This document shows, in pieces, positions 7,650 through 24,674 of a stretch of 64,000 bases of DNA (the stretch's first letter is position 1; each line of letters begins with the position of its first letter). This stretch comes from Flavobacteriaceae bacterium PS02337 (GTDB taxonomy: Bacteria > Bacteroidota > Bacteroidia > Flavobacteriales > Flavobacteriaceae): NCBI GenBank assembly GCA_029959285.1, contig JASCOE010000001.1:186001-250000 (forward strand). Reading direction: 5' to 3'. The notes under the pieces are model-generated. The model saw only the letters and a list, made by a program, of their open reading frames with translations, was not told where the DNA came from and ran no database searches. Both the position numbers and the translations under genes were made by a program.

Positions 7650-8024
7650 TTATAACTTTGAAGTAATATCTTTTTTGTATTTAGACAAAGTCGCTCTTGT
7701 TAAACCAAGATTTGCTTTTGTAGAATCTACAGCTAAATAGATAAAATATCTTCCATCTTCAGAAACATCAATAATGTGTATTTGATCTGTTAGTGTAATC
7801 AAGATATCGTTGATTTTTTGATCTAATCCTAAAGCTTTAAGCGCATTCAGCTTTGCTTTTACAACTTCTAAATTGTAAGCAGAAGCCAATTCTGGATCAA
7901 AATCAGGTTTTACAGTTAGCGAACAGTAAGACATTCCTGTCTCAACTTCAGTCACTGAAACAGCGATAAAACCATTAACATTCTCTTTTAAATCGTTTTG
8001 GAAATTTTGTAAAAAATCTGACAT
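7650..8024 (-). CDS. Roadblock/LC7-domain protein, second gene of module 1
   Basis: 124 residues, nearly the whole length a Roadblock/LC7 fold: the opening strand FIAVSVTEVETGMSY, the long helix around YNLEVVKAKLNALKAL, the strand pair ILITLTDQIHIIDV, and the closing YLAVDSTKANLGLTRATL with the family's NLG turn. Roadblock proteins such as MglB dimerise and act on small GTPases in polarity or motility. No MglA-like GTPase is nearby. It follows its partner gene (8047-8367) by 22 bases. It is a clear paralogue of the gene at 20246-20626, sharing VNGFIAV, YNLEVVKAKL, DILITL, QIHIID and KANLG. The link to gliding or polarity is only a suggestion. Confidence 0.82.
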   Translation of the reverse strand: MSDFLQNFQNDLKENVNGFIAVSVTEVETGMSYCSLTVKPDFDPELASAYNLEVVKAKLNALKALGLDQKINDILITLTDQIHIIDVSEDGRYFIYLAVDSTKANLGLTRATLSKYKKDITSKL

Positions 8025-8046
8025 GTTTATTAAATTTTGGTTTAAA

Positions 8047-8367
8047 TTAATTGATGAAAATTGTGTCCATTCTGCGAAGCAATAGCCCCATTTTACTTAA
8101 ATCTTTAGAAAGCAGCGCAATGCAGTTATCATCTTGATTTTTACATGCCACGACAATTCCGTCGTTGTTCTTAATCATAACTTGTTTAAGATCTCCGTTG
8201 TTTACGTCTTCCGACATTTCAAGGCACATTTTCAAGATCATTCCGATCATTGCTGCGACGTTTCCGTCATACTCTAAATTAACAGACTCATTTAAGATTC
8301 CATCAATATTAAAACTCAAGCCAGATTCTGCTCCAGTCTCTTCTACTAGTGTTTGTAAATCAATCAT
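8047..8367 (-). CDS. Roadblock/LC7-like protein, first gene of module 1
   Basis: 106 residues with the Roadblock order of elements: strand LSFNIDGILNES, strand VNLEYDG, helix VAAMIGMILKMCLEMSEDV, then LKQVMIKNNDGIVVAC and the closing IALLSKDLSKMGLLLRRM. It is shorter and more diverged than its downstream partner. It matches the gene at 19852-20208 in layout and in words such as the NxDG/NLDYGD turn, AAM, and LKQ followed by a strand ending EGIVV or DGIVV. Tandem Roadblock proteins often form heterodimers, which I infer here. A TATCTTTG box lies just upstream. Confidence 0.75.
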   Translation of the reverse strand: MIDLQTLVEETGAESGLSFNIDGILNESVNLEYDGNVAAMIGMILKMCLEMSEDVNNGDLKQVMIKNNDGIVVACKNQDDNCIALLSKDLSKMGLLLRRMDTIFIN

Positions 8368-8399
8368 ATTCTATTATTTTGTCATGTTTTTGGAAGCGT

Positions 8400-8407
8400 C
8401 AAAGATA
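8400..8407 (-). promoter_or_regulatory. Promoter -7 box of Roadblock module 1
   Basis: TATCTTTG on the minus strand, 33 bases before the ATG at 8367. It fits TAnnTTTG. No clear -33 TTG is seen at the expected spacing. Confidence 0.65.
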
Positions 8408-8610
8408 TTTTTAATCTCAGCAATTGACGGCTAAACACTTGTTAAAAAAAAGCATTCTATAACTTACTGACTCACTTTTATTTATCACATAAATAATCTT
8501 ATTTATTTGCAAAAAATATGCAATAAAAATTAACATAAAAAGCAAATTATACTAAAAACATAACATTTCATTTCATAAAACTCATTTCTAAAATTAAGAT
8601 TTACAGATTG

Positions 8611-8642
8611 TTGCATTTACCAAAAGTTTTTATATAGCTTTG
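8611..8642 (+). promoter_or_regulatory. Promoter of the small gene at 8658-8801
   Basis: TTG at 8611-8613, 21 bases, then TAGCTTTG at 8635-8642. The spacing and both boxes fit the Bacteroidota consensus. The expected start of RNA is about 8647-8650, giving a leader of only about ten bases. Confidence 0.75.
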
Positions 8643-8657
8643 CAAAAAATTGTACAT

Positions 8658-8801
8658 ATGAAAACTGTTGACGAATTACGCTTTGACCTAAATGTAAAAC
8701 TGATGAAGTTTAGAAGATTTCGTATTGAAAACGGACCTATCAACACTACGAATTCTGAAGGAACTGCGAAAAAAGGTTTTTTCAAAAAAATATTCAGCTA
8801 A
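8658..8801 (+). CDS. Small basic protein, divergent partner of Roadblock module 1
   Basis: 47 residues (MKTVDELRFDLNVKLMKFRR and onward), too short for most gene callers. It is supported by a two-box promoter 16 bases upstream and a hairpin terminator directly downstream. It is basic, with a helix-prone first half and a C-terminus reading KKGFFKKIFS that would form an amphipathic helix able to touch a membrane. The small gene next to the second Roadblock pair (19455-19670) shares MK-x-F-x-x-F/L-R-I and KG-x-FK-x-I and is also divergent, so I regard the two as homologues. Function is unknown. Confidence 0.7.
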   Translation: MKTVDELRFDLNVKLMKFRRFRIENGPINTTNSEGTAKKGFFKKIFS

Positions 8802-18734: not shown

Positions 18735-19334
18735 TTATCCGTGTTTTGGAAATGCTCTTTTATTAAAAACCAAAAGTATACCTACTCCTGTAGAAATTGC
18801 CACATCGGCAACATTGAAGATTGCATTGAAAAAAGCAAAATGGTTTCCTCCAAAAATCGGAAGCCACGTTGGTAGATTTCCTTCCCAAATAGGAAAATAG
18901 AACATATCGACAACCAAACCATGAAACCAAGTTCCGTAAGGTTCAGGAGAAAAAATAGTTGCCAAATTATGAGTACTGTCATCAAAAATAACTCCGTAGA
19001 AAACAGAATCGATAATATTTCCAGCTGCACCAGCAAAAATTAAAGCTATTGCCACTATTAAATAATTCGAATAACGCTTTTTAACAGAATCTGCAAGCCA
19101 CCATCCGATTCCGAATACAGCAAAAATTCTAAAAACAGTCAAAATCAATTTTCCGTATTCTCCAGGAATCTTTGTTCCCCAAGCCATTCCTTCATTTTCA
19201 ATAAAATGAATTTTAAACCAATCAAAAACAACATACTCATCTCCAAGAATGAAATTTGTTTTGACATAAATTTTAGAAAGCTGATCAACAATTAAAACTA
19301 AGAATATAAGGAAATACGCTTTTCGTAATGACAT
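18735..19334 (-). CDS. lspA: Lipoprotein signal peptidase (signal peptidase II)
   Basis: 199 residues with four hydrophobic segments. It is the inner-membrane aspartyl protease that cleaves prolipoproteins at the lipobox Cys. The two catalytic aspartates are D109 in GNIIDS and D177 in FNVADVAIS. The N-terminal VDQLSKIYV and ENEGMAWG are also family words. It is about 30 residues longer than the E. coli enzyme, mainly through a loop near 113-165, as in other Bacteroidota. A TATTTTTG box at 19354-19361 (minus strand) lies 20 bases upstream, just beyond the terminator of the preceding gene. Confidence 0.94.
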   Translation of the reverse strand: MSLRKAYFLIFLVLIVDQLSKIYVKTNFILGDEYVVFDWFKIHFIENEGMAWGTKIPGEYGKLILTVFRIFAVFGIGWWLADSVKKRYSNYLIVAIALIFAGAAGNIIDSVFYGVIFDDSTHNLATIFSPEPYGTWFHGLVVDMFYFPIWEGNLPTWLPIFGGNHFAFFNAIFNVADVAISTGVGILLVFNKRAFPKHG

Positions 19335-19454: not shown

Positions 19455-19670
19455 TTATTTTTTTACTGGGACACTTGCTGGTTTTTTTGGACTGTCGGAG
19501 AAAAAATCAGAAATCGATTTAAAAATTCCTTTACTTTCTTTTCCGGCAGCCAATTTCTTCGCTTCACCCTTTTTAACGTCGGCTTTAAACTTAATGCGCA
19601 GTTTTTCAAAATCTTTCATTCTACGTTCTACGTCAGAGTTTACTTCTTTGAATTTCAGTACTTTAGCCAT
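19455..19670 (-). CDS. Small basic protein, divergent partner of Roadblock module 2
   Basis: 71 residues, very rich in Lys, with no membrane segment. A charged helical first half (SDVERRMKDFEKLRIKFK) leads to KESKGIFKSISDFFSDS, which can form an amphipathic helix, then a Pro/Lys tail. It has its own terminator. It resembles the 47-residue protein at 8658-8801 in MK-x-F-x-x-x-RI and KG-x-FK-x-I and sits in the same divergent position beside a Roadblock pair. I infer homology and a shared role with the Roadblock proteins; the biochemical function is unknown. Confidence 0.7.
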   Translation of the reverse strand: MAKVLKFKEVNSDVERRMKDFEKLRIKFKADVKKGEAKKLAAGKESKGIFKSISDFFSDSPKKPASVPVKK

Positions 19671-19741
19671 AATGTAAGTTTTTTACAGTAAATAATTTAA
19701 ATTATTAATGATTTGGTATTACAATGATACATAATTTAATT

Positions 19742-19749
19742 TATATTTG
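19742..19749 (+). promoter_or_regulatory. Possible promoter box of Roadblock module 2
   Basis: TATATTTG matches TAnnTTTG. It would leave a leader of nearly 100 bases before the ATG at 19852, longer than for module 1. Confidence 0.45.
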
Positions 19750-19851
19750 TTAATGAAAATTAACACTTGTTTAGACATATTCAAAATTAATTTTCAAAAA
19801 TAAATCCAAAACAAACTGAAATTAACAATTCCCCCGAAATCCTACAAAATC

Positions 19852-20208
19852 ATGAATGAAATTACTACTACACTAAATGACTTTCTAGTCAGCACAAAAT
19901 CTACTGCTGCTTTAATTTTAAATGGTAAAGGAAAACTAATCACTTCCTTAAACTTAGATTACGGAGACAGCATTGCAGCCATGAGTGCAGCAATTTTATC
20001 AATGAGCGAAAAATTCTTGATCGATTTAGAAAAAGGCTCTTTGAAGCAACTTTACCTAAAAAGTGCAGAAGGCGTTATTGTTGGAAACAAAATTAGCGGT
20101 TCCAATTTTATTGTTGCTTTTTCTCGAGAAGGAAGCAATCTAGCCTTGTTGATGCGTTCTACAGAAGAAGTATCTGCAGAATTGAGCAAAAATTCCTTAC
20201 TGAAATAA
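19852..20208 (+). CDS. Roadblock/LC7-domain protein, first gene of module 2
   Basis: 118 residues with a Roadblock pattern: strand TAALILNGKGKLITSLNLDY, helix SIAAMSAAILSMSEKFLIDL, strands LKQLYLKSAEGVIVGNK and NFIVAFSREGSNLALLMRST. It is the paralogue of 8047-8367, longer at the C-terminus and closer to the family consensus. The partner gene follows after 37 bases. Roadblock proteins regulate small GTPases or serve as dimerisation platforms; no GTPase gene is near. The module lies between the DksA-like gene and lspA. Confidence 0.8.
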   Translation: MNEITTTLNDFLVSTKSTAALILNGKGKLITSLNLDYGDSIAAMSAAILSMSEKFLIDLEKGSLKQLYLKSAEGVIVGNKISGSNFIVAFSREGSNLALLMRSTEEVSAELSKNSLLK

Positions 20209-20245
20209 AAAATAAATTCTATTAACAAACAAACCCAAATGACCT

Positions 20246-20626
20246 ATGAGCAATGATTTTTTAAACGTGTTTTTAAATGAAATGAAAACAAACGTAAACG
20301 GCTTTATCGCTGTCGCTGTAACAGAAATTGAATCTGGATTAAGTTTTGGAAACTTAACTATTGACCCTTCTTTTGACCCAGAATTAGCTGCTGCTTATAA
20401 CTTAGAAGTTGTAAAAGCAAAATTAAGCGCCGTAAAAGCCTTAAACTTAAACCAGGATATTGAAGATATTTTGATTACACTTTCGAATCAAATTCACATT
20501 ATCGACATTTCTCCAAACAAAAAATTCATGATCTACCTAGCTGCAGATGCTTCAAAAGCAAACTTAGGTATGACTAGAGCTATTTTAAGAAAGCACAAAG
20601 CTGACGTCGAAAAAAATCTAGCGTAA
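20246..20626 (+). CDS. Roadblock/LC7-domain protein, second gene of module 2
   Basis: 126 residues, paralogue of 7650-8024 by simple inspection: both read VNGFIAV, then FDPELA, YNLEVVKAKL, DILITL, QIHIID, and K-ANLG-TRA. The Roadblock fold covers residues 15-118. Conservation between copies is much higher for this second gene than for the first, which suggests that it carries the shared surface while the first partner has specialised. It ends just before a strong terminator, so the pair forms one short transcript. Confidence 0.85.
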   Translation: MSNDFLNVFLNEMKTNVNGFIAVAVTEIESGLSFGNLTIDPSFDPELAAAYNLEVVKAKLSAVKALNLNQDIEDILITLSNQIHIIDISPNKKFMIYLAADASKANLGMTRAILRKHKADVEKNLA

Positions 20627-20884: not shown

Positions 20885-21265
20885 TTATCTTTGCAAGTTT
20901 TTAGCTTCGATACTCATTGTTGCATGAGGAACGATTTTAAGCCTTTCTTTGCTAATTAATTTACCTGTTACTTTGCAAATACCATATGTTTTATTTTCAA
21001 CACGGAATAAAGCGTTTTTCAAGTCACGAATAAACTTCTCTTGTCTAATAGCCAATTGAGAGTTTGCTTCTTTAGACATTGTTTCACTTCCTTCTTCAAA
21101 AGCTTTGAAAGTTGGAGATGTATCGTCTGTTCCGTTATTTAAATCGTTCATATAAGCACTTTTGATCAAATCAAGATCTGCTTGCGCTTTTTGTATTTTT
21201 GCTTGAATTATCTCTTTGAACTCTGCTAAGTCAGCATCAGAGTACCTTGTAATTTCATCTATCAT
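20885..21265 (-). CDS. TraR/DksA-family protein without zinc cysteines
   Basis: 126 residues with a long coiled-coil-like N-terminal half (about 10-85, Glu/Lys/Ala rich) and the DksA C-terminal motif YGICKVTGKLISKERLKIVP. DksA enters the secondary channel of RNA polymerase and with ppGpp resets transcription. The usual four-Cys zinc site is reduced to one Cys here, and the other positions are T, H and A (PHAT). From memory this loss is usual for the Bacteroidota branch, so it is probably functional. It starts seven bases after the ileS stop and must be co-transcribed with it. Confidence 0.85.
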   Translation of the reverse strand: MIDEITRYSDADLAEFKEIIQAKIQKAQADLDLIKSAYMNDLNNGTDDTSPTFKAFEEGSETMSKEANSQLAIRQEKFIRDLKNALFRVENKTYGICKVTGKLISKERLKIVPHATMSIEAKNLQR

Positions 21266-21272
21266 TTTCTAA

Positions 21273-24200
21273 CTATTTTGAAATTAATATAATGGTTTTA
21301 ATGTCATCAAACTCAATTTCTGTGCCGTTTTCTAAAACGTCAACAAAAACCAGTTCATCTGTTAATGTTTCAGACTTAATATAGTCCTCATTTTTCGAAA
21401 CAGCATCTTCTAAAATACCGTCTCTTTTTATTTGTACCTTAATCTTATCAGTAACTTCAAATCCTGAATCTTTACGGATATTCTGAATTCTGTTTACTAA
21501 TTCTCTCGCGATACCTTCATTTTTTAATTCTTCAGATATTGTAATGTCAAGCGCAACTGTAATTCCGTTTGAATTTGCAACTAGCCAACCTTCGATATCT
21601 TGCGATGTTATTTCGACGTCTTCTAAGGATAAAGTTACATTATTTCCAGAAATAACAATATCTAGCGTTCCTTGCTTATCTAACTGATTAATTTGCTCCG
21701 CAGAAAAACCTTGTATCTCCTTAGAAATCAATCCCATATCTTTTCCAAAACGTGGTCCAAGAGCTTTAAAATTAGGCTTTATCTGTTTCACTAAAATACC
21801 AGAAGCATCGTCTAAAAGTTCGATTTCTTTCACGTTTACTTCGGCTTTTACAAGATCAGAAATCGCTTCAATTTCAGCTCTCTGATTCTCGTCAAGTACT
21901 GGAATCATTACCTTTTGCAGTGGCTGACGAACTTTAATCATCTCCTTTTTACGTAGTGATAAAACTAGAGAAGATATGGTTTGCGCTTTCTGCATTTTGC
22001 TTTCCAACGTTTTATTAACAAAGTTTTCGACAAATTTCGGGAATTCAGCCAAGTGAACACTAGCAAAATCCTCGGTTCCCGTAGAAACTGTCAAATCTCT
22101 GTACAATTTATCCATAAAAAATGGAGCTACCGGAGCGCTCAATTTACTGATTGTAAACAAACAAGTATAAAGCGTTTGGTAAGCTGCAATTTTATCATGA
22201 GCGTATTCACCTTTCCAGAAACGACGACGGCATAAACGAACGTACCAGTTACTTAAGTTTTCCTGAACGAATTCAGAAATAGCTCTTGTCGCTTTTGTTG
22301 GCTCGTAATCTTCGTAACATTCGTCAACAAACTTCACTAAAGTATTCAACTCAGAAATAATCCATTGATCGATTTCTGGTCTTTCGTTTAACGGAATTTC
22401 GGCTTCAGTATATTTAAATCCGTCGATGTTTGCATATAACGAGAAGAACGAATATGTATTGTAAAGTGTTCCGAAGAATTTACGGCGAACTTCAGCAATT
22501 CCTTCAAGGTCAAACTTCAAGTTATCCCACGGATTTGCATTCATAATCATGTACCAACGTGTGGCATCAGGACCGAATTCTTCAATGGTTTTAAACGGGT
22601 CTATAGTATTTCCTTTACTCTTAGACATTTTAATTCCATTTTTATCTAAAACCAAACCGTTAGAAACTACGTTTTTATATGCTACTTTATCAAAAACTAA
22701 AGTTCCGATTGCGTGCAATGTATAAAACCATCCACGAGTTTGATCTACTCCTTCTGCAATGAAATTTGCAGGGAAATCTTTATTCTCATCAATTTTATCT
22801 TGATTTTCAAAAGGATAATGCCATTGCGCATAAGGCATTGCTCCAGAATCGAACCAAACGTCAATTAAATCACTTTCGCGTTTCATTGGCTGGCCTGAAG
22901 CCGAAACCAAAGTAATTTGATCGACTACATTCTTGTGCAAATCAATTAAATCATAATTTGATTCAGACATGTTTCCGATTTCGAAACCTTTAAATGGGTT
23001 TTCTTTTTGAAAACCAGCTTCGATAGATCTCTCGATCGCATTGTACAATTCTTCAACAGAACCAATAAGAACTTCTTCTTTTTTATCTTCAGTTCTCCAA
23101 ATTGGCAACGGAATTCCCCAATATCTAGAACGAGATAAGTTCCAGTCGTTGGCATTTTTAAGCCAGTTTCCAAAACGTCCTTCACCAGTAGATTTAGGTT
23201 TCCAATTGATAGTTTCGTTCAGGTCGAACATTCTATCTTTTACATCGGTTACTTTGATGAACCATGAATCTAGGGGATAATATAACAACGGCTCGTCGGT
23301 TCTCCAGCTGTGTGGATAACTGTGCACGTATTTTTCAACTTTAAAAGCTTTATTTTCTTCTTTAAGACGAATAGCGATTTCAACATCTACAGATTTCTCT
23401 GGAGCTTGTCCTGCATCGTAATATTCGTTTTTAACGTATTTCCCAGCTAAATCTCCTAAATGAGAAGTAAATTTTCCTTGTAAATCTACTAATGGAACTG
23501 CATTTCCTTCTTCATCCAAAACCAACATTGGTGGAACTTCCGGTTTTGCTTCTTTTGCAACTTTAGCATCATCTGCTCCAAAAGTCGGCGCTGTATGCAC
23601 AACTCCTGTTCCATCTTCTGTTGTAACGAAATCTCCGGCGATTACTCTAAATGCATTTTCAGCATTTTGATATGGCAATACATAAGGCAATAATTGCTCG
23701 TAACGGATTTCTACCAAATCTGCTCCTTTTGCTTCTGCTAAAATTTTGTACGGAAGTTTTTTATCTCCGTTTTTCACATTGTCAAAATCAGCATCATCTT
23801 CACTTAAGAAAAATCCTTTTCCGAATTGTTTCCCAACTAAGTTTTTAGCCAAAACAACATTGATTGGCTCAAAAGTATATTGATTGAAAGTTTTAACTAA
23901 AACATAATCGATTTTTGGACCAACTGTTAAAGCTGTATTTGACGGAAGCGTCCAAGGCGTTGTCGTCCAAGCTAAAATGTGAATATTTCCAAAACCTTGT
24001 AAAAAGCTTGGAAGCGTTTCTGGCAAAGTTTTGAATTGTGCTACAATTGTAGTATCTGTAACATCACGATAAGCTCCAGGCTGATTTACTTCGTGAGAAG
24101 ACAATCCTGTTCCTGCTTTTGGAGAATACGGCTGAATCGTATAACCTTTGTACAACAAACCTTTATCGTAGATTTGTTTCAAAAGCCACCAAACCGATTC

Positions 24201-24674
24201 CATATATTTTGGTTTATAAGTTACATATGGATCTTCCATATCAACCCAATATCCCATTTTTTCGGTCAAATCATTCCATACGTCAGTATAACGCATAACG
24301 GTTTTTTTACACGCTTCGTTATATTCTTCGATAGAAATCGTTTTGCCAATATCTTCTTTTGTAATTCCTAATTCTTTTTCAGTACCCAATTCTACAGGCA
24401 AACCGTGAGTATCCCAACCGGCTTTTCTCTTAACCTGAAAACCTTTTTGAGTTTTATATCTGCAAAAAATATCTTTAATCGCACGCGCCATCACGTGGTG
24501 AATTCCTGGTAATCCGTTTGCTGAAGGCGGACCTTCAAAAAATACGAAAGGCTCAGCACCTTCGCGAGTTGTAACACTCTTTTCAAATATATTTTCTTTC
24601 TTCCAAAAATCAAGAACTTCAGTAGCTATAGTTGGCAAGTCAAGTCCTTTGTATTCAGTAAATTTTGTACTCAT
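21273..24674 (-). CDS. ileS: Isoleucine--tRNA ligase, eukaryote-like type
   Basis: 1133 residues, longer than the E. coli enzyme (938). It charges tRNA-Ile in the cytoplasm. The class I signatures are GLPGIHH at 54-60 (HIGH) and KMSKS starting at K682. WTTTPWTLPSNTAL in the editing domain and WFDSGAMPYAQ are typical. The size, the PPSANGLPG opening and the C-terminal extension fit the eukaryote-like IleRS group (IleS2 type), which includes enzymes tolerant of mupirocin; tolerance here is inference. The DksA-like gene follows by seven bases. Confidence 0.96.
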   Translation of the reverse strand: MSTKFTEYKGLDLPTIATEVLDFWKKENIFEKSVTTREGAEPFVFFEGPPSANGLPGIHHVMARAIKDIFCRYKTQKGFQVKRKAGWDTHGLPVELGTEKELGITKEDIGKTISIEEYNEACKKTVMRYTDVWNDLTEKMGYWVDMEDPYVTYKPKYMESVWWLLKQIYDKGLLYKGYTIQPYSPKAGTGLSSHEVNQPGAYRDVTDTTIVAQFKTLPETLPSFLQGFGNIHILAWTTTPWTLPSNTALTVGPKIDYVLVKTFNQYTFEPINVVLAKNLVGKQFGKGFFLSEDDADFDNVKNGDKKLPYKILAEAKGADLVEIRYEQLLPYVLPYQNAENAFRVIAGDFVTTEDGTGVVHTAPTFGADDAKVAKEAKPEVPPMLVLDEEGNAVPLVDLQGKFTSHLGDLAGKYVKNEYYDAGQAPEKSVDVEIAIRLKEENKAFKVEKYVHSYPHSWRTDEPLLYYPLDSWFIKVTDVKDRMFDLNETINWKPKSTGEGRFGNWLKNANDWNLSRSRYWGIPLPIWRTEDKKEEVLIGSVEELYNAIERSIEAGFQKENPFKGFEIGNMSESNYDLIDLHKNVVDQITLVSASGQPMKRESDLIDVWFDSGAMPYAQWHYPFENQDKIDENKDFPANFIAEGVDQTRGWFYTLHAIGTLVFDKVAYKNVVSNGLVLDKNGIKMSKSKGNTIDPFKTIEEFGPDATRWYMIMNANPWDNLKFDLEGIAEVRRKFFGTLYNTYSFFSLYANIDGFKYTEAEIPLNERPEIDQWIISELNTLVKFVDECYEDYEPTKATRAISEFVQENLSNWYVRLCRRRFWKGEYAHDKIAAYQTLYTCLFTISKLSAPVAPFFMDKLYRDLTVSTGTEDFASVHLAEFPKFVENFVNKTLESKMQKAQTISSLVLSLRKKEMIKVRQPLQKVMIPVLDENQRAEIEAISDLVKAEVNVKEIELLDDASGILVKQIKPNFKALGPRFGKDMGLISKEIQGFSAEQINQLDKQGTLDIVISGNNVTLSLEDVEITSQDIEGWLVANSNGITVALDITISEELKNEGIARELVNRIQNIRKDSGFEVTDKIKVQIKRDGILEDAVSKNEDYIKSETLTDELVFVDVLENGTEIEFDDIKTIILISK

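Follow-up and report, generated by a model that had tools for sequence, protein, structure and literature searches.

Gene content of the locus

Three open reading frames, designated S2, A2 and B2, are located between lspA and a DksA/TraR-like gene at positions 19455-20626 of the window (the entire stretch of 64,000 nucleotides of Flavobacteriaceae bacterium PS02337 DNA that was analysed). S2 (19455..19670, minus strand) encodes a basic protein of 71 aa, with 21 K/R against 10 D/E residues, and is separated by a divergent intergenic region (19671..19851) from A2 (19852..20208, plus strand), which encodes a Roadblock/LC7 protein of 118 aa with a match to PF03259. After a gap of 37 bp follows B2 (20246..20626, plus strand), whose product is a 126-aa Roadblock-fold protein of an MglC-like family. 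The neighbouring genes, all named by eye, lie on the minus strand: lspA (18735-19334), the DksA/TraR-like gene (20885-21265) and ileS (21273-24674). A sequence-only reading of the window had described this order (a small basic gene, a divergent region and two Roadblock genes), and its observation of the module is confirmed by the ORFs at these positions.

Module 1 (S1-A1-B1; 7650-8801) has the same plan as this module 2 and the opposite orientation. It consists of S1 (8658..8801, plus strand; 47 aa, 11 K/R against 5 D/E, with the C-terminal end KKGFFKKIFS), A1 (8047..8367, minus strand; a Roadblock/LC7 protein of 106 aa) and B1 (7650..8024, minus strand), a paralogue of B2. A third copy of B, accompanied by neither A nor S, is present elsewhere in the genome (G000:C54). 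Here and below, G000 is this genome (5.7 Mb), other G numbers denote the genomes compared with it, and L numbers denote loci.

Two Roadblock families, A and B

The match of A2 to PF03259 has an E value of 1.9e-7 and 31.1 bits (cut-off 23), and A1 scores 20.9 bits, which is under the cut-off. The AlphaFold model of A2 (mean pLDDT 82) has the element order H-E-E-H-H-E-E-E-H and agrees with the alpha-beta-beta-alpha-beta-beta-beta-alpha order that defines the Roadblock/LC7 fold. With this model Foldseek returned 106 PDB matches at E<=0.001, and the 50 listed were Roadblock or Rag/GATOR/Ragulator chains; matches to Asgard Roadblocks and MglB were obtained with Foldseek and VIA. The family profile of A found Asgard Roadblocks (E 3.9e-10) and CvnB5 (9.6e-4).

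Neither B1 nor B2 matched any Pfam or NCBIfam family, and PF03259 (Robl_LC7) recognized none of 19 B-family members at E<=0.1. The AlphaFold model of B2 is a clean Roadblock fold with the arrangement typical of the Roadblock/LC7 superfamily, and it matches, as does the A2 model, MglB, MglC, LAMTOR proteins and Asgard Roadblocks over almost its full length. The earlier claim of two Roadblock proteins per module is upheld by Pfam for A2 and by predicted structure, not curated profiles, for B2; the second Roadblock can be taken as real on the strength of a confident model. A PDB sequence search with B2 as the sole query gave nothing useful, and a family profile was needed. This profile matched Myxococcus MglC over the full domain (E 1.8e-4; profile positions 7-121 to MglC 5-117), the sole other match up to E 1 being a phosphatase (0.14), and LAMTOR5 was matched by one of the 19 B-family members (E 1.9e-5). 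In a profile-profile comparison the A and B families aligned over 14 columns only; the two are thus related by fold and not detectably by sequence.

Relatives of B2 occur on 27 plasmid records (Streptomyces, Hymenobacter, Deinococcus, Comamonas and others), where they are, among the matches listed, either unannotated or labelled “hypothetical protein”. B2 had no match in 50,697 phage records. A phage origin was rejected, since the PHROGs matches were weak only (E 0.042-0.35) and none was obtained for B2 in the phage records, and a role in antiphage defence was set aside on similar grounds (weak PADLOC matches only, E 0.011 and 0.014).

The S proteins and their C-terminal tail

No Pfam or NCBIfam family was matched by S. 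The S proteins are 42-115 aa long and have a MinD-like or basic tail. In S2 a variable linker joins the conserved N-terminal block to the conserved KGIFKSISDFF block, which is followed by a short C-terminal extension, and orthologues of S1 and S2 alike show two conserved blocks on either side of a variable linker. The long variants end in YFG, GFFG or GYFG plus basic residues. The S1 tail, KKGFFKKIFS, resembles the end of E. coli MinD, KKGFLKRLFGG (read from NC_000913).

Hydrophobic moments were compared with those of permuted sequences. The S2 tail gave p 0.006-0.015, the S1 tail p 0.17-0.51 depending on the stretch, the S tails of L043, L125, L044, L146 and L149 p 0.56-0.91, and the tail of a PAS protein of L042 p 0.38; the test misses MinD itself (p 0.37-0.67), and therefore does not discriminate, neither for nor against anchoring. 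By the same test the N-terminal block was amphipathic in one of seven S proteins (L043, p 0.012).

When ORFs of at least 110 aa from the loci compared were scanned for the tail pattern, five matches were obtained: MinD, three PAS proteins near solitary B genes and one transporter-like ORF. A somewhat larger set of loci contains 1,245 distinct ORFs of this length. An unrelated PAS family, searched in 12 genomes, carries a MinD-like tail in 15 of the 15 short PAS ORFs read; two of these tails are a KGLFS variant with an extension recalling that of S2, and one tail-bearing ORF comes from G021, a genome without the module. The tail is thus shared with proteins other than Roadblock partners, as would suit a general role in membrane targeting.

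The members of this PAS sensor family (G000:C22:35224-35808, which is L240, together with L235-L239, L241-L244 and L246-L250) are about 205 aa long, with a variable, often acidic linker and the tail [KR]GFFxR[FL]F or variants of it; a subgroup (L249, L250) ends in KGLFS-x-LFDKK followed by an extension.

Insertion, distribution and selection

According to the sequence-only reading, ileS, dksA and lspA are neighbours in many Bacteroidota, and the module was taken for a possible insertion there. A synteny survey of other genomes confirmed the neighbourhood without the module, and the insertion between dksA and lspA is real. The two genes adjoin directly in most of the genomes searched for dksA (15 of 20, at a distance of 85-212 bp); a sixteenth has a 725-bp gap, one (G583) carries the module between them, and three (one from the genus and two from the family) had no lspA inside the 1.5 kb compared beside dksA. 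G021 is devoid of both modules and retains the remainder of the block in order.

In a scan of the genome collection 229 candidates encoded a relative, and 80 loci were kept. In 79 of these, named Flavobacterium, [Flexibacter] or Flavobacteriaceae bacterium, the identity to B2 was 85-100%, and in Aestuariibaculum it was 64%; by these identities G000 belongs to Flavobacterium or stands very near it. Single-sequence searches found S, A and B together at all but three of the loci (77 of 80). The sequence of L098 begins within the module, at the edge of a contig, and the divergent S of L125 was first spotted by eye, its sequence later forming part of the S profile. At L119, from Flavobacterium hydrophilum, the reading frames of S2 and A2 are broken, each matching in two frames, and B2 is intact; this single genome gives a hint, of natural origin, that S and A decay together.

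The plan of a divergent S followed by A and B was read in seven Flavobacteriaceae neighbourhoods, namely that of module 1, dksA-lspA, those near dusB-like (L043, L125/L145, L223) and obg-like (L044, L220) genes, L146, L149 and L224; genes were named by eye, and the S genes of L146, L223 and L224 were likewise identified by eye. G088 has an A-B pair without divergent S; an 82-aa ORF downstream of its B was considered as a displaced S and rejected, since 157 decoys stood above it in the profile ranking. A search of 12 genomes with the S profile gave strong matches (E<=6e-11) at module loci only. The remaining matches had E>=0.1 and included the true S of L149 (G383) at 0.136; the S of G280 (L146) was missed.

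Among 180 Flavobacterium genomes B is present in 39 and A in 32, and all 32 genomes with A also have B; under a random draw that ignores phylogeny, such nesting has a probability of 5e-29. In the family sample B was found at E<=1e-6 in 6 of 299 genomes, our own included. G025 keeps S1 and A1 intact beside a B1 cut to a 23-residue remnant, so that in this genome S and A have survived the loss of the B belonging to them, and G539 has a stop in A1 and no B1 ORF that could be seen. B2 and a solitary B remain in both genomes, so that the B copies may substitute for each other.

All three genes are under purifying selection in both modules. The median dN/dS values were 0.119 for S2 (n=77), 0.047 for A2 and 0.040 for B2 in module 2, and 0.149 for S1 (n=25), 0.039 for A1 and 0.056 for B1 in module 1.

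Relationship between the two modules

Module 2 had been presented as an inverted duplicate of module 1, and the pair as the apparent outcome of an ancient duplication with one conserved and two specialising subunits. The gradient of conservation was found as described: B is conserved (63% identity between B1 and B2 over 123 aa, with the words YNLEVVKAKL, QIHIID and KANLG in both), A is faster (33% identity between A1 and A2, E 2e-15) and S is the fastest, with no BLAST signal between S1 and S2 (E 0.058). The helix word KG-x-FK-x-I occurs in both S proteins, as KGFFKKI in S1 and KGIFKSI in S2. The proposed N-terminal motif MK-x-F-x-x-F/L-R-I fits S2 (MKDFEKLRI), but S1 is one residue shorter (MKFRRFRI).

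A profile made from S1 orthologues only placed none of 5,567 decoy ORFs ahead of the S proteins of L043, L125, L149 and L044, but 10 ahead of L146 and 1,846 ahead of S2. With the S2-only profile, the number of decoys ranked higher was 4 for L149, 8 for L125, 22 for L043, 26 for L044, 30 for S1 and 102 for L146. S1 and S2 are therefore joined only through intermediates, position and motif, and not by a direct significant match, so the expected profile similarity was obtained in this indirect form.

In the B tree B1 (100/95) and B2 (100/99) each form a clade, B2 groups with the Aestuariibaculum module (94/84) and all three group together (86/88), neither of the last two nodes being starred. AU tests on B gave no choice between topologies (p 0.36-0.42), and A1 and A2 as a single clade were weakly rejected (p 0.0435, with long branches). 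The trees thus do not place the A and B pairs in unrelated clades, nor do they prove a duplication; the sister relations of the modules are beyond what they can settle. Of the inverted duplicate, the opposite orientation, the common families and the element TTAACAnnTGTTTA upstream of A in both modules stand, but the sister relation is unproven; of the ancient duplication, the homology of the modules and their common upstream element stand, but confident sisters are not given by the trees. Related modules are also found at other loci and in other genera. We read modules 1 and 2 as two representatives of an old module family, now separated by 12 kb, whose proximity goes back either to duplication or to repeated insertion, the duplication being plausible but unproven.

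The divergent region of module 2, a block of which including TATATTTG is conserved (alignment of n=77 sequences), contains an operator-like inverted repeat, TGTTAAT-GAAA-ATTAACA (19748..19765), and the element common to both modules, TTAACACTTGTTTAG (19760..19774, plus strand), a motif that was picked after comparing both regions. Upstream of A1 it has the form TTAACAAGTGTTTAG (8431..8445, minus strand). TTAACAnnTGTTTA precedes A at 68 of 79 module-2 loci (at 88-93 bp in 66 of these 68) and at all 25 module-1 loci (69-78 bp in 25/25); with a final G it is found at 59/79 and 7/25 loci, respectively. The exact 15-mer (TTAACAnnTGTTTA plus the final G) has six sites in the 5.7-Mb genome, two of them upstream of A1 and A2, and at one mismatch or fewer there are two in the window, a number reached in 2 of 100 shuffles for this motif chosen post hoc. 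Of the four other exact sites, three lie near genes that were named by eye (a LuxR-type regulator, a ferritin-like gene and one resembling D-Tyr-tRNA deacylase) and the fourth is near none that is clear; the idea of a regulon was rejected, no common theme being apparent among them. The promoter consensus of Flavobacterium is TTG-N17-23-TAnnTTTG, and the module-2 intergenic region holds a partial match only. Shared regulation and common descent both fit the presence of the shared element.

Search for an MglA-type GTPase and the proposed role of the module

In other systems, proteins of the Roadblock fold regulate small GTPase switches. Searches of G000 with PF00025, PF08477 or a GTPase of G005 as the query did not reveal any stand-alone MglA-type GTPase; the frames detected there were of 416-964 aa (PF00025) and 297-964 aa (PF08477) only. 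As a positive control, the same PF08477 search recovered two GTPase frames in G005 (183 and 187 aa) with scores below the cut-off, and PF00025 scores these two proteins above its cut-off. Of the 12 B-bearing genomes, the G005 query was positive in G005 itself and in neither G000 nor the ten others. GTPases too diverged for the models used may have escaped this search. An MglA-type GTPase nearby or in the genome, by which an MglA/MglB polarity system is recognized, was thus not found.

The reading that we favour, at a little under an even chance, is that S, A and B form a membrane-tethered Roadblock scaffold which works without MglA. What we infer for such a scaffold is that A binds B, that S binds A, that S is helical and anchored in the membrane, and that there is a client. 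A (MglB-like) and B (MglC-like) would assemble with each other, in the manner of MglB and MglC or of LAMTOR2 and LAMTOR3. The conserved N-terminal block of S, helical by eye, would bind this assembly, and the MinD-like C-terminal tail would hold it on the inner membrane; as S tracks A rather than B, it probably binds A or the A-B interface. In a genome that yielded no MglA-type GTPase to the searches above, it would serve as a GTPase-independent docking platform for a kinase, a response regulator or another NTPase, and not a GAP. Judging from distant neighbourhoods, our best guess for the docked client is sensor or two-component proteins.

In the MglB-MglC(-RomR) system of Myxococcus xanthus the same two unlike Roadblocks are found (A is MglB-like by fold, B MglC-like by profile and fold), the positioning partner being RomR there and, as we propose, S here. 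The differences are that here no mglA-like GTPase was found, and that the A and B genes lie side by side with S encoded divergently. The MglC dimer of Myxococcus is described as binding two MglB dimers, and the same source describes MglC itself as not binding liposomes (PMC7949163), which counts against the membrane model. The scaffold reading is also weakened by the A-B pair of G088 without divergent S, by the persistence of S1 and A1 beside the B1 remnant in G025, by the S of G280 and of G383 that the S profile missed or scored poorly, and by the different ends of the long S variants. RomR is reported to bind MglC through residues 371-420 with a KD of 2.6 nM (PMC12719032). In Ragulator (LAMTOR1-5), unlike Roadblock pairs are combined with the helical, membrane-anchored p18, which is described as wrapping these dimers and anchoring them at the lysosome (PMC5680233). 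S would take the part of p18, a likeness that lies in the gene set and the tail alone; p18 is lipidated at its N-terminus, whereas S would use its C-terminal tail, and no Rag GTPase is known here. The conservons of Streptomyces (CvnA-D) are likewise multi-copy modules with a Roadblock protein, and CvnB5 is matched by the A profile. However, kinase-like CvnA, CvnC and the GTPase CvnD are lacking beside modules 1 and 2, where the order cvnA-cvnB-cvnC-cvnD was not encountered (neighbours read by eye).

It is possible, though we consider it unlikely, that A and B are still a GAP or GEF for a conserved GTPase (Era-, Der- or HflX-like), with only the MglA gene missing. Roadblocks are described as predicted NTPase regulators (PMC4316618), and genes for small GTPases are associated with distant homologues of B. 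At L037 of G005 a B-like gene comes first; next is an ORF that starts like a response regulator and matches the B profile (E 1.1e-17), and then follow genes for a Robl_LC7 protein (E 1.5e-14) and a GTPase of 178 aa. At a second locus of this genome, L152, a Robl_LC7 protein is paired with another GTPase. Plasmid pSU2 of Agarilytica rhodophyticola (L259:5010-7081) encodes B-like, BLUF, 178-aa GTPase-like (PF03029, E 6.4e-8; Ras 5.6e-4, under the cut-off) and Robl_LC7 proteins in one run, which looks like a light-controlled Roadblock-GTPase system as judged from these matches. Against the idea, the only GTPase genes in the flanks read (by eye) of the seven S-A-B neighbourhoods were lepA-like (L223) and obg-like (L044/L220), both of them housekeeping genes. 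Roadblock-GTPase-sensor operons of the Agarilytica or G005 type could be the ancestors of the module: in a tentative extension of the scaffold reading, one that we hold with clearly less confidence than the scaffold itself, a GTPase-free bacterial counterpart of Ragulator, with two Roadblocks on a small tail-anchored protein, would have arisen from them by loss of the GTPase and gain of the anchor, and would then have spread and multiplied in Flavobacteriaceae.

Somewhat less probable than a GAP or GEF role is that B itself does the work, as a dimeric adaptor in sensor or two-component signalling, and that A and S are dispensable and localise or inhibit it. B occurs without A in 7 of the 39 Flavobacterium genomes that carry it, one of these (G578) being a contig-end fragment, and B2 is the slowest protein of module 2 (0.040 against 0.047 and 0.119), but in module 1 the value of B1 (0.056) exceeds that of A1 (0.039). 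Solitary B genes recur beside a Ppx/GppA-like gene, response regulators and tail-bearing PAS proteins, and in other bacteria the neighbours of B-like genes are a response regulator and an ATP-binding protein (Comamonas), BLUF (pSU2) or PAS genes (Hymenobacter). The lack of any genome with A but no B in the genus sample indicates that A needs B; it does not follow that B works without A in the modules. Moreover, most solitary B genes fall in a clade (98/92) together with the B of the full module L044, and therefore do not constitute a separate family. That S is a transcription or nucleic-acid factor acting on TTAACAnnTGTTTA and not a membrane anchor would agree with its basic, divergently encoded nature and with the element common to both modules, but is very improbable, as S has no Pfam or NCBIfam match, its tail is like those of MinD and the PAS proteins, and no TTAACAnnTGTTTA turned up when the intergenic regions of a further seven S-bearing modules were searched.

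In bacteria, Roadblock proteins have mostly been described together with the small GTPases that they partner (MglA, CvnD). If the scaffold reading is true, their complexes can also serve as platforms at the membrane with no small GTPase involved. The module is a compact, repeatedly conserved orphan Roadblock system of Flavobacterium, present also in a strain of F. johnsoniae (L092), and B constitutes an MglC-like family which Pfam and NCBIfam did not recognize in the members tested and which has relatives on plasmids of several genera. A published survey gives 328 of 749 Roadblock genes as uncoupled from mglA, as are the S-A-B modules; what sets these modules apart is that they form a defined three-gene unit, in which a small partner and a Roadblock protein of a second family are included. 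According to the text of PMC4316618, no orphan MglB homologue had been characterised as of 2014, and an abstract-level search of the literature on bacterial Roadblock, MglB and MglC proteins gave no account of the S-A-B system.

Some further gene associations of the B family were recorded. A ParA-like gene (by eye) lies between two B-like genes in G219 (L040:7743-10668), and two or three clustered B-like genes are located near a protein with a CarboxypepD_reg-like domain at L035, L036 and L260 (Hymenobacter canadensis). The Ppx/GppA-like gene close to solitary B genes of Flavobacterium has a signal-peptide-like start (L225, L226, L227, L229, L230, L233, L234 and L042); PF02541 was above its cut-off in all eight Ppx/GppA-like proteins tested, that of L232 being assigned by eye, and MFS-, GNAT- or response-regulator-like genes are often also present in these surroundings.
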